DNA of 10,186 nt from a bacterium (GTDB lineage: Bacteria > Thermosulfidibacterota > Thermosulfidibacteria > Thermosulfidibacterales > JALWSI01): positions 1 through 10,186 of the forward strand of contig JALWSI010000243.1 of NCBI GenBank assembly GCA_027080315.1, read 5' to 3'. Each line of letters starts with the position of its first letter. Positions within the stretch are counted from its first letter, which is position 1. A program made the translations under genes and the position numbers. Below the pieces are notes generated by a model. That model was not told the origin of the DNA and did not search any database. It saw only the letters and a list, made by a program, of their open reading frames with translations. Below, piece by piece: positions 73 through 5,209 of this stretch.

Positions 73-1830
73 ATGCCTAATCTGTTTGCGATGTTGGGAA
101 CCGGCAGAACCGCTCTCATGAGCGAACAGCGGGCCATTGGCGTCACCGGCCACAACGTCTCCAACATCTACACAGAGGGCTACACCAGGCAGGTGCCCAT
201 CTTCACCGCAGAGAACCCCTACGAAGACGGTAGGTTTTGGGCTGGAGCAGGGGTCAAGATTGATGAGTTCAAGAGAATGGCTGACACCTTCCTTGACCGC
301 AAGATAAAGCTACAACTTGGTGAAAAGTCCCTTTGGGAAGGCTTAGACAGCGTGGCCTCTGATCTGGAAGTGATATTCAACGAAACAAAAGACATCGGGG
401 TTAGAGACTCTTTAGACGCCTTCTGGGATCAATGGCAGGAGCTTGCCGATAACCCCGAAGAGGTGGTTGCCAGAGACGGAGTGGTTCAGGCAGGCAAGAC
501 CCTTGTTAGCACTCTCAGGGAGAGCCACGACTCCATTGAGGCTGTTGCAAACGAGAAGGCCAAACAGATTGAGAACTGGGTGAACGAGGTGAACACCCTA
601 TCTGACGAGGTGGTAGAGCTGAACAAAAAGATAAAGGCAGAAGAGGTTGGAGGGAGAGACGCCAACGACCTCAGGGATAAACTCAACCTGAAGCTCAATC
701 GTCTTGCGGAACTGGTGGGAGGCAACGTTGAGATGAACCCTGAGAATAAAACCTTCTCCCTCTTTCTTGGCAACGGAGCCACCTTGGTTGACGACAAGAC
801 CGCCCATCACATTGAGTTTAAAAGCGGAGAGTTCACCCAGTCTCTTATCCGCCGCCTAAACGGCAAGGTGGCCCTTGACGAAGTCTCTACCCAAAAGGAC
901 TGGTACACCCTGAAGATAGACGGAGAAGACGTATCTCTCAGCTTAGGAGGCAAGATAGGGGGCATGGTTCAGGGGGTTACCACCCTTCTTCAGGACATGG
1001 CAGACAGGCTGAACACCTTCACAAAAGAGCTGATCTATCAGGTGAACAAGCTCCACGCCTCAGGAGTGGGCATGAACCCCATCACCAACCTTGAGGGAGA
1101 GGTACAACTGGGAGACACCTCTGTTCCTTTAAGAAAGATGACAACCCTGCCTTTCTTGGACAGGCTAAAGAACGGAGGGTTTGAGGTCACGGTGTTTGAC
1201 GAGAACCACAACAAGGTTTCGTCAACCATAGTGAATGTGGATCTTGAAAACTCCTTTGACGCAGTGGTGAACCAGCTGGATCAGATCAACCACCTTCACG
1301 CAAGCGTATCTCCGGGAGGAAAGCTGATTATCTATTCAGACGGTGGGTACAGCTTCTCTTTCTCAAACGACTCAAGCGATTTCCTGGTTAACACCGGGAT
1401 GAACGCCTTCTTTTCTGGAACCAATGCGGGAGACATAGATGTAAGCTCAAGGCTAACCAGCGACACTTCAAACGTGGCCGCTGGAACCTCATTAAACGCT
1501 GGAGACAACACCATCGCCCTGAAGATAGCCAACCTCAAACAGGAGCCGGTTATGGAGAACGGACACCTCACTCTCAACGGGTACTACAACTCTATGGTGA
1601 GCCACCTTGGTGCCAAAAGTGGGATGATCAAAGATATGGTTGACACCCACACGGGCATTTTGGAGCAGCTTCAGCAGAAGAGAGACTCCATATCTGGGGT
1701 CAACTTAGACGAAGAGATGACGAAACTGATGCAGTTTCAAAGGGCCTATCAGGCAGCTGCTCGTTTCATCACCACAATAGACGCCATGACCGATAAGGTG
1801 GTTAACGGCATGGGACTGGTGGGAAGATAA
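73..1830 (+). CDS. flgK: Flagellar hook-associated protein 1 FlgK
   Basis: This is hook-filament junction protein 1, an exported structural protein. It sits between the hook (FlgE) and the FlgL ring. At 585 residues its length is normal for FlgK. The N-terminal rod/hook-type signature is at about residues 10-40 (VTGHNVSN-x-YTEGYTRQ, residues 24-40), close to the family's VTGHNIANxNTPGYSRQ. The C-terminal D0 helix is diagnostic: SGVNLDEEM starts at residue 541, followed by QFQRAYQAAARFITTID. The N-terminal third (about 60-200) is helical and predicted coiled-coil-like, as in the FlgK D1 domain. The middle is the variable D2/D3 region. A strong ribosome binding site supports the ATG at 73. The gene ends 4 bp before flgL, so the two are almost certainly co-transcribed. 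The protein is expected to leave the cell through the flagellar type III apparatus, and no Sec signal peptide is seen. Confidence 0.95.
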   Translation: MPNLFAMLGTGRTALMSEQRAIGVTGHNVSNIYTEGYTRQVPIFTAENPYEDGRFWAGAGVKIDEFKRMADTFLDRKIKLQLGEKSLWEGLDSVASDLEVIFNETKDIGVRDSLDAFWDQWQELADNPEEVVARDGVVQAGKTLVSTLRESHDSIEAVANEKAKQIENWVNEVNTLSDEVVELNKKIKAEEVGGRDANDLRDKLNLKLNRLAELVGGNVEMNPENKTFSLFLGNGATLVDDKTAHHIEFKSGEFTQSLIRRLNGKVALDEVSTQKDWYTLKIDGEDVSLSLGGKIGGMVQGVTTLLQDMADRLNTFTKELIYQVNKLHASGVGMNPITNLEGEVQLGDTSVPLRKMTTLPFLDRLKNGGFEVTVFDENHNKVSSTIVNVDLENSFDAVVNQLDQINHLHASVSPGGKLIIYSDGGYSFSFSNDSSDFLVNTGMNAFFSGTNAGDIDVSSRLTSDTSNVAAGTSLNAGDNTIALKIANLKQEPVMENGHLTLNGYYNSMVSHLGAKSGMIKDMVDTHTGILEQLQQKRDSISGVNLDEEMTKLMQFQRAYQAAARFITTIDAMTDKVVNGMGLVGR

Positions 1831-1834
1831 GGCT

Positions 1835-4800
1835 ATGACGAGAATAAGCAACCTGCTGTTGGTTAATCAGTTTTTAGGAGACAATCAGAAGAAACTGAAG
1901 GACCTGGAAGATAGTATGTACAGGGTCTCTTCGGGCAAGAAGTACAGGGTGCCCTCTGACAACGCCCAGGCAACAAACCAGATACTGAAACTGCGTAGCT
2001 CTATTCAGAGCATTGAGCGGTATGTGACCAACGTTACAGAGGGCAAGAGCTGGCTTGGCTCTGCAGACAGCATTCTCTCAAACACAGGAGACTACATGCG
2101 CCACGTTGCAGAGCTTGCCAATCGCGGATCCACCGACAGCCTGGTTGCAGAAGATAGACAGGCAATAGCTGAAGAGCTGCAGGGCATATTCGGCGAGGTG
2201 CTTGACTCTGCCAACACCAAGGTGATGAACCGATACATATTTGGAGGTAGCAACACCGACGAAGCTCCCTTTGTTGACTCAGAGAACGGAAACGTTGATG
2301 CCCTTGGGTTGCCCCCTGGACTCAACCTTGAATCAACAGATCCCTTTGACGATCTCTATTCCTTAGACACCGGGCGCTACAAACTCTTTTTAAGAAGAGA
2401 AGGAAACTCATTGGTCTATTGGTTGAGAGACGCTGAGGGTAAGAGGGTACAGGTTGATGCCAACAGCTACGACGAATCCCACACCACCTACAACGTCCTC
2501 CATGACAGAGGCAGGGTGCTGCTTTCAAAGAACACCGCCTCGGGAACAGAAAAATACAGCGCCGTGGTGGATACGGGGCGAGGTCTCAAGATTGATCTGG
2601 ACAATGTTGACGCCAGCTTTCTGCAAGAGGGAGAGACCGTAGAGTACGACATAAACTTCTCTCAGGGTGGATTCGTTAACTACCGGGGCAACGACCAGTC
2701 CATAGAAACCCAGATCGGATTTCACAGCTTCGTCCCGGTGAACCTTTCGGGCGAAGGCCTCTTTAAGCCCATGCATCGCAAGATAGGCGCTGCAGTGGCA
2801 ATAGAAGATGCCACAGAGGCCACCCCTTGGAACGCCATTGGGGTCTCAACCAGCGCCACCTTGGAGATAGAGGGAATAGACCGCTCCGGAAGCAGCCTTG
2901 GAAGGGCCAAAGCGGTTGGAGTGGACGCTGTTGCCTTGGATCGTCTTGGGGAAAGGGTAAACCAGGTGAAGAGTGACCTCTCTGCCATTATTGGTGAAGA
3001 GGTTAGCGAGCAATGGGTCACAAGGCAACCTGCCTCCACCCTGGCATCGGCCACCTTCAACATCTACTACGATGACGACATCCACGACACCGCCGCTGCA
3101 ACTGCCCACACCATAAACATATCACTTCATCCCTACGATAGCCCTGAAGAGGTGGCTTCTGAGATCCAGTCAAGAATAGATGCCGATCCCGACCTCAGGG
3201 GAAAGGTGACTGTGAAAACCTATGGAGATACCTTGGCGTGGGAGGTGGTGGACTCAGGAGCGCACTCCATAGCCGTTGAGGCTGTGAGCGGCTCCATAAC
3301 CCTCACTGCAGGAACAACAATAGACACCACAACAGGAAGCCACGTCCTCTCAGCCAATGTAACCTTGGGAATAGGCAAGGATGTGGCAACAGCTTTGGGG
3401 ATACCTGAAGACGGCGTGCTTTACGACGAAGGCAGAGAGAACATTTACACCGTTGCCGACAAGGTGGAAGGCACCTTTATGCAAGGAGACAGGGCTGCAA
3501 CAACATTCACCTTAACGAGAAGTGCAGCCATAACAGTAACCGTATCCGCAACCCACGCCGGAGCCTACACCATTGACACCGTTGAGGCCCGGTTCTTCAA
3601 GCCCATCACCGCTGGCACCACCATAAGGGTAAGCGCAGGAGGCACCACCTACACCTTCACTGCCGCCAACAACATTAACAGCGTTGATGAGCTTGAAGAG
3701 GAGTGGAACGACTCAGCCAACTGGAGTGGTGGAGCTATGCTACCCCCGGTAGGCTTGGTGTGGGAAGGTCAAGAGGGATACAGGCTTTTCAACAGGGCAG
3801 CCGCTGGCAGTTTCACCATGAGCACCACAGCGGTGGGAACCGACTCTCCCCTGTATCTGATGGGATTCGCCCCCCTTTCCGCCTCGGTAACCATATCCAC
3901 AAACGACAGCAGCGCCTCGGCAGAGTTTAATGCCCTATCCTTGGCATGGGACATAAACCACGCAGCCTATGTTGCAGGGTGGAATGACTTTGAGGCCAAG
4001 ACCAATGGCCTTGGCAAGATCACAATAAGGTCAACGGGAACACCAGCCGATGACAAGAGCGACTTCTCAATGAGTGACCTTGACACCGCGGGGTTAGAAT
4101 CGGTCTTTCCCCGAGCCCGCAATGGAGAGGTAGATTCGGTTCAAGACACCATCAAGGACCTTCTGAACAAGCTTGAAGAGGCCTACAGATACAACGTAAG
4201 GGCCTGGATGGAAGACGGACGCATCAAGCTGAGAGACAACATCGGAGGCCCTAGTAAACTGTCTGCCACCATTCTGCCTGGAGATGGATACACAGGACCA
4301 CAGTTCGGAACCTTCCACGTTGAAAGGCAGGGTGGAGGGGTAGATGTGTTTGACATGATCAAGGACCTGAAGGATGCCATGGAGAACAACATCGGCAAAC
4401 GGATGGTTGGCATGCCCACCTCCTGGAAGGGAACCGCCCTACCCATGACCACTGGCCAGTTCAGAGGCAACTACAACACCACCTGGACAGTGGAGGTGAA
4501 TCCTTTAGATCCATCAGACGTGGTCACCATGCACGACTACGTGGCCATATCGGCAGGGGGTAGCTACACATCCTCTGTGACCTTGGGGAACACCTACACC
4601 CTGCCCTCCACCATCTCTGCAGGTGGTACCACATACACCGCAGGAACCACCCTTCCTGAGGGCACCATTCTGAATGGTCCCATACACAACACCGGAGGTT
4701 CTGCTGTGGAGCTGCCCATAGACATACCTTTTGACGATGGAGACCAGGTGATACCCTTCTACTCTAACAACCACAGGCCTATTCAGGTGACTGTGAAGGA

Positions 4801-5209
4801 TGCCAAAGGCAGGGTGGTTAAGCGCTTTGTGGCTGAAGAGCCCGACAAAGACTACTACATTAGGGACGGTGTTTATCTTAAGTTCTCCTCTGGAGCCATA
4901 GCGGTTGACGACAACACCTTCACCATGCAGGTAGGCAAAGGCGCCGAAGAGGAGGTGGGCAGAGCCACAGAGGCCTCTGATCAGATAACCAGAAACCACA
5001 GCCGCATAGGAACCTGGGTGAACCGCATGAAGCTGGCAGAGAAACGCTACGAACAGTTCAAGCTGGACCAGAAGGACAAACTGGCAAGCACAGAAGAGAT
5101 AGACATCTCAGAGGCGGTTTCAAAGCTGCAACAGGCAGAAAACGCCTACAGAGCGGCCCTGGCAGCTGGCACCAGGCTATTCAACCTTTCAATACTGGAC
5201 TTCATTTAG
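1835..5209 (+). CDS. flgL: Flagellar hook-associated protein 3 FlgL, greatly enlarged
   Basis: This is hook-filament junction protein 3, which links FlgK to the flagellin filament. The ends are canonical. Residues 1-148 carry MTRISN, the SSGKKYRVPSDN segment and NRYIFGGSNT (132-141) followed by APF. Residues from about 1045 to 1124 carry the NHSRIGTWVNRM and TEEIDISEAVSKLQQAENAY helices and end in LFNLSILDFI. The family's central NYRGN and VPVNLSGEGLF elements lie at about 282-310, and VFDMIKDLKDAMENN at 838-852. Between them sit about 520 extra residues (about 311-837), and about 190 more follow (about 853-1044), giving 1124 residues against roughly 300-550 for most FlgL. The extra parts are rich in Thr, Ser, Gly and Ala and beta-strand-like. 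They include segments resembling flagellin IN modules (about 406-470 and 768-818) and recurring TAGTT and SAGGTTYT motifs. One frame spans everything, with codon use like flgK, so this is not a frameshift or assembly join. The ribosome binding site is weak (GGGAAG at 1821-1826), suggesting translational coupling to flgK. Confidence 0.93.
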   Translation: MTRISNLLLVNQFLGDNQKKLKDLEDSMYRVSSGKKYRVPSDNAQATNQILKLRSSIQSIERYVTNVTEGKSWLGSADSILSNTGDYMRHVAELANRGSTDSLVAEDRQAIAEELQGIFGEVLDSANTKVMNRYIFGGSNTDEAPFVDSENGNVDALGLPPGLNLESTDPFDDLYSLDTGRYKLFLRREGNSLVYWLRDAEGKRVQVDANSYDESHTTYNVLHDRGRVLLSKNTASGTEKYSAVVDTGRGLKIDLDNVDASFLQEGETVEYDINFSQGGFVNYRGNDQSIETQIGFHSFVPVNLSGEGLFKPMHRKIGAAVAIEDATEATPWNAIGVSTSATLEIEGIDRSGSSLGRAKAVGVDAVALDRLGERVNQVKSDLSAIIGEEVSEQWVTRQPASTLASATFNIYYDDDIHDTAAATAHTINISLHPYDSPEEVASEIQSRIDADPDLRGKVTVKTYGDTLAWEVVDSGAHSIAVEAVSGSITLTAGTTIDTTTGSHVLSANVTLGIGKDVATALGIPEDGVLYDEGRENIYTVADKVEGTFMQGDRAATTFTLTRSAAITVTVSATHAGAYTIDTVEARFFKPITAGTTIRVSAGGTTYTFTAANNINSVDELEEEWNDSANWSGGAMLPPVGLVWEGQEGYRLFNRAAAGSFTMSTTAVGTDSPLYLMGFAPLSASVTISTNDSSASAEFNALSLAWDINHAAYVAGWNDFEAKTNGLGKITIRSTGTPADDKSDFSMSDLDTAGLESVFPRARNGEVDSVQDTIKDLLNKLEEAYRYNVRAWMEDGRIKLRDNIGGPSKLSATILPGDGYTGPQFGTFHVERQGGGVDVFDMIKDLKDAMENNIGKRMVGMPTSWKGTALPMTTGQFRGNYNTTWTVEVNPLDPSDVVTMHDYVAISAGGSYTSSVTLGNTYTLPSTISAGGTTYTAGTTLPEGTILNGPIHNTGGSAVELPIDIPFDDGDQVIPFYSNNHRPIQVTVKDAKGRVVKRFVAEEPDKDYYIRDGVYLKFSSGAIAVDDNTFTMQVGKGAEEEVGRATEASDQITRNHSRIGTWVNRMKLAEKRYEQFKLDQKDKLASTEEIDISEAVSKLQQAENAYRAALAAGTRLFNLSILDFI

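Follow-up and report, generated by a model that had tools for sequence, protein, structure and literature searches.

The gene at positions 1835-5209 of the window (the whole stretch of DNA analysed here, which is one entire contig of 10186 bases from a 1.84 Mb MAG of 253 contigs) very probably encodes a FlgL (the protein that forms the upper ring where hook and filament join) that has reached 1124 amino acids by growth of its outer domains. We conclude that this large FlgL is genuine but ordinary: it is lineage-wide, and its outer domains are, as far as tested, typical of those found in axial proteins.

Identity and layout of the protein

The flgL open reading frame runs unbroken on the forward strand from 1835 to 5209, directly downstream of flgK (73-1830, forward strand), whose 585-aa product, the junction's partner ring, is normal in size and scores 315 bits against TIGR02492 (cut-off 170.75). 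The 1124-aa protein itself scores 201.6 bits against TIGR02550, the FlgL equivalog model, where the curated cut-off is 127.2, and also matches Flagellin_N (E 1.8e-13); membership of the FlgL family is therefore indicated both by the adjoining flgK gene and by the equivalog score, and the initial annotation, which had described a FlgL of about 1124 residues with intact core ends, was right on this point. The genes that follow flgL lie on the opposite strand, and encode a HAD hydrolase, a metallo-hydrolase, a trypsin/PDZ (DegP/HtrA-type) protease and trehalose-phosphate enzymes.

Flagellin-type core helices are recognised at both ends of the protein. The N-terminal D0/D1 core (residues 1-150; 1835-2284, forward strand, as are all parts of the gene) is identified by Pfam Flagellin_N at residues 5-141, with FlgL and flagellin chains as its top matches among solved structures; the C-terminal D1/D0 core (residues 1036-1124; 4940-5206) is identified by a second stretch of the TIGR02550 match, although Flagellin_C falls below its cut-off there (17.6 vs 23 bits). 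Between them lie a D2 region (residues 151-310; 2285-2764), delimited in a multiple alignment that included one FlgL of 633 aa and three of ~400 aa; insert 1 (residues 311-837, 527 residues; 2765-4345); a landmark helix, VFDMIKDL, and its follow-on (residues 838-866; 4346-4432), which align with other FlgLs and are 45-55% identical to the relatives; and insert 2 (residues 867-1035; 4433-4939).

The initial annotation had drawn attention to positions 2765-4966, equivalent to FlgL residues 311-1044, and had placed two inserts there by reference to two landmarks. Both places and sizes hold: VNLSGEGLF occupies residues 302-310 and VFDMIKDL residues 838-845, with 527 residues separating them, and ~190 residues (about 846-1035) lead from VFDMIKDL to the predicted C-terminal helix that starts at residue 1036. 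What had been overlooked is a third extra stretch of ~130 residues, at approximately 151-280, that stands out against FlgLs of ~400 aa in the multiple alignment.

The same FlgL across the order

Three MAGs belonging to a sister family within the order share this FlgL layout, with no internal stops; two of these proteins are 1155 aa and 1113 aa long, and the third is split over two contigs, with 203 + 763 residues seen. They are 36-37% identical to the window FlgL; part by part, identity is 40-46% for the N-terminal core, 36-45% for the C-terminal core, 32-35% for insert 1 and 35-37% for insert 2. Retention of the inserts at this level across the order points to constraint of some kind. With the window genome included, the long FlgL is present in all four of the order's genomes in which flagellar genes were found; since every flagellated member seen has it, its size is a trait of the order's flagellated members, an outcome that the initial annotation had itself named as one that would refute its claim.

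Searches with FlgL, FlgEFG, FliD and FlhA gave no match in five genomes of the order's other family (G001, G003, G005, G007 and G008), which, judging from sequence, are probably without flagella. These genomes are consequently unusable as an outgroup with a small FlgL, and the distribution of flagellar genes implies that the flagellum was either lost in one branch or gained in the other.

Large FlgLs beyond the order

In a survey of 290 broadly sampled genomes, 97 outside the order had a FlgL place scoring above the family cut-off. The median FlgL open frame in these 97 is 386 aa; it reaches at least 550 aa in 24, at least 700 in 14 and at least 900 in eight, one of which is of 1228. Addition of two further FlgLs, of 1264 and 1404 aa, whose whole proteins also score above the cut-off, brings the total to 99, with ten of at least 900 aa and three of at least 1100. 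The range of 300-550 residues given in the initial annotation is thus a fair description of the typical FlgL, yet about a quarter of the 97 (24) equal or exceed its upper end; and the notion that size alone makes the window protein notable is not supported, with FlgLs of similar and greater length found elsewhere. Large FlgLs have been described previously in Campylobacter and its relatives, at 750-950 residues as compared to 317 in Salmonella (PMC5691160).

Intact large FlgL ORFs of 1008, 1017, 910 and 1227 aa were found in distant genomes (L071, L072, L073 and L075, respectively), and two of the four contain Pfam Flagellin_IN motifs, which suggests that enlargement of FlgL probably arose more than once.

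The closest counterparts in layout come from a family designated f113, whose FlgLs (1404 aa in G118 and 1264 aa in G255) have their parts in the same order as the window protein. They are larger still, with the additional mass in the region of insert 2, and only ~22% identical to it. Alignments of the order's and the f113 FlgLs match end-to-end in hhalign (E 1.4e-43, with the core contributing); the insert-2 profile matches both f113 proteins (E 6.3e-7 for the 1404-aa and 6.6e-6 for the 1264-aa FlgL), whilst insert 1 taken by itself gives a match of 118 columns (E 3.7e-5), such that insert 2 and part of insert 1 are homologous. On the evidence of these profiles, insert 2 is homologous to parts of other FlgLs. 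For one flagellin of the f113 genomes, the portion that was read (643 aa) matches the Geovibrio thiophilus flagellin 9au6 over its whole length with 717 bits, which suggests that these genomes may come from bacteria related to Geovibrio. In the multiple alignment, the 633-aa FlgL, from a further lineage (G041), also appears to have the D2 region in common with the window protein, as well as parts of insert 2; here the link to insert 2 rests on that alignment, as the pairwise hhalign comparison is weak (probability 18%).

Nature of the inserts

AlphaFold2, supplied with four sequences only, gave a poor model of the full-length protein (mean pLDDT 38), in which insert 2 and most of insert 1 take no confident fold. 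Two modules nonetheless fold, both of them within insert 1: module 1 at residues ~402-488 (3038-3298) and module 2 at residues ~583-692 (3581-3910). The latter is the best folded part, with a block pLDDT mostly of 70-94 when predicted within residues 395-700. Its structural matches are V. cholerae flagellins (Z 6.4, 3.0 A, 89 residues), FliD D2-D3 and the C. jejuni filament; those of module 1 include Vibrio flagellin D2 and P. aeruginosa FliC, together with phage tail sheath domains, and module 1 also has a profile match to FliD. The lists for both modules are dominated by flagellar axial and phage tail proteins.

As a separate observation, phage tail sheath domains rank above the flagellins in the structural alignments of module 1, with Z values reaching 9.2 (88 residues at an rmsd of 2.5 A).

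Independently of the structural comparisons, the insert-1 profile has matches in eight genomes outside the order, in FliD frames in five and in FlgL frames in two, and three of these FliD proteins were read and checked. FliD is the cap protein, with core ends that differ from those of the window FlgL, such that the resemblance, in both profile and fold, is between its outer D2/D3 domains and parts of insert 1. Taking profile and predicted fold together, insert 1 is best read as a D2/D3-type expansion. The initial annotation had reasoned that ordinary D2/D3 expansion would lower interest in the protein, and for insert 1 the profile and both modules do agree with this, if only in part, as the Z scores of 5-7 against flagellin and FliD are modest and could be explained by a shared general arrangement.

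Other searches of the insert region were negative. Neither Flagellin_IN (PF07196) nor any other Pfam model matched residues 151-1042 at E up to 10 (the Flagellin_IN model does find its motif in other large FlgLs), and phmmer found no match for the same residues among PDB sequences. Foldseek returned a single match below 0.001 for the full-length model, the Geovibrio thiophilus flagellin of 792 aa, at an rmsd (52) too high to be of use, and none below 0.001 for the 395-700 model. Comparison by hhalign of insert-region pieces with each other and with Flagellin_IN-like stretches gave no match above 15% probability, so duplication within the inserts is unsupported; DNA repeats within flgL are short, two-copy matches.

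Other axial proteins of the genome

Matching enlargement of the other axial proteins, suggested in the initial annotation as something to look for, is found in part: the genome encodes a large FliD of 890 aa (G000:C145:1814-4486; L067) and a large flagellin of 674 aa, separate from FlgL (G000:C95:2470-4494; L065), but FlgK is not enlarged. Across 89 genomes outside the order, FlgL and FliD lengths show a weak correlation (Spearman 0.26, nominal P 0.015, uncorrected for ancestry), and median FliD length is 861 aa where FlgL is at least 700 aa, as against 602 where it is below 450; the lengths used are those of open frames in most genomes, and of ORFs in some. This correlation fits with joint growth of the outer layers.

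The flagellin gene is preceded by an oppositely oriented gene (G000:C95:185-2068, minus strand) whose 627-aa product seems to have a signal peptide and contains repeated motifs that, by look, resemble beta-propeller repeats.

Discussion

Synthesising these findings, we propose that the window protein is a junction FlgL whose additional mass sits in its outer domains. In Salmonella and Campylobacter, 11 FlgL subunits assemble via D0/D1, leaving D2 exposed (PMC12221982). By analogy, ~11 copies of the window FlgL would assemble through their D0/D1 helices between the FlgK ring and flagellin, and the added domains would point outward to form a wider outer ‘collar’, one that may be as wide as the filament and cap, themselves made of large subunits, would require. 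Homology therefore lends support to the outward projection from an 11-subunit ring envisaged in the initial annotation. The nearest solved equivalent is the Campylobacter jejuni FlgL (750 aa, 9gsx chain A), seen in an 11-subunit junction with a bulky D2 (PMC12221982); it is smaller than the window protein, and the sequence search picked up similarity between the two only at the core ends.

Conservation of the inserts across the order might be taken to mean that they form a specialised collar, serving in adhesion, sheath contact, phage reception or junction stiffening. We consider this improbable, and find marginally less likely again the proposal that the conserved 527- and 190-residue inserts make up a one-ring collar with its own selected function (attachment or junction reinforcement): Pfam, and phmmer against PDB sequences, revealed no enzymatic or binding domain in FlgL, the modules that were tested resemble ordinary outer domains, and the flagellin and FliD of the genome are large too. 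Nor did we find any pointer to the roles put forward in the initial annotation (adhesion, sheath contact, phage receptor). Were the collar to have such a function, it would concern an uncultured lineage.

The presence of a Flagellin_N domain, and the existence of flagellins of >1000 aa in many phyla (PMC6248924), could also suggest a giant flagellin. We reject this as highly unlikely, given the equivalog score, the flgK neighbour directly before the gene, the FlgLs as closest solved relatives, and the separate 674-aa flagellin in the same genome. Giant flagellins, as we propose for the window FlgL, are axial proteins grown by insertion of outer domains, albeit ones that build the filament from thousands of copies rather than a junction. 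Least credible of all is a frameshift or assembly fusion, which a contig from so fragmented a MAG might invite, as three other MAGs share the layout, without internal stops, at 36-37% identity.

If our favoured explanation, a FlgL enlarged by outer-domain growth, is true, then little changes in the wider picture. The case would add a clear FlgL example of the outer-domain growth seen in flagellin and FliD, and puts on record a FlgL layout common to an uncultured lineage and to another family with a Geovibrio-like flagellin.
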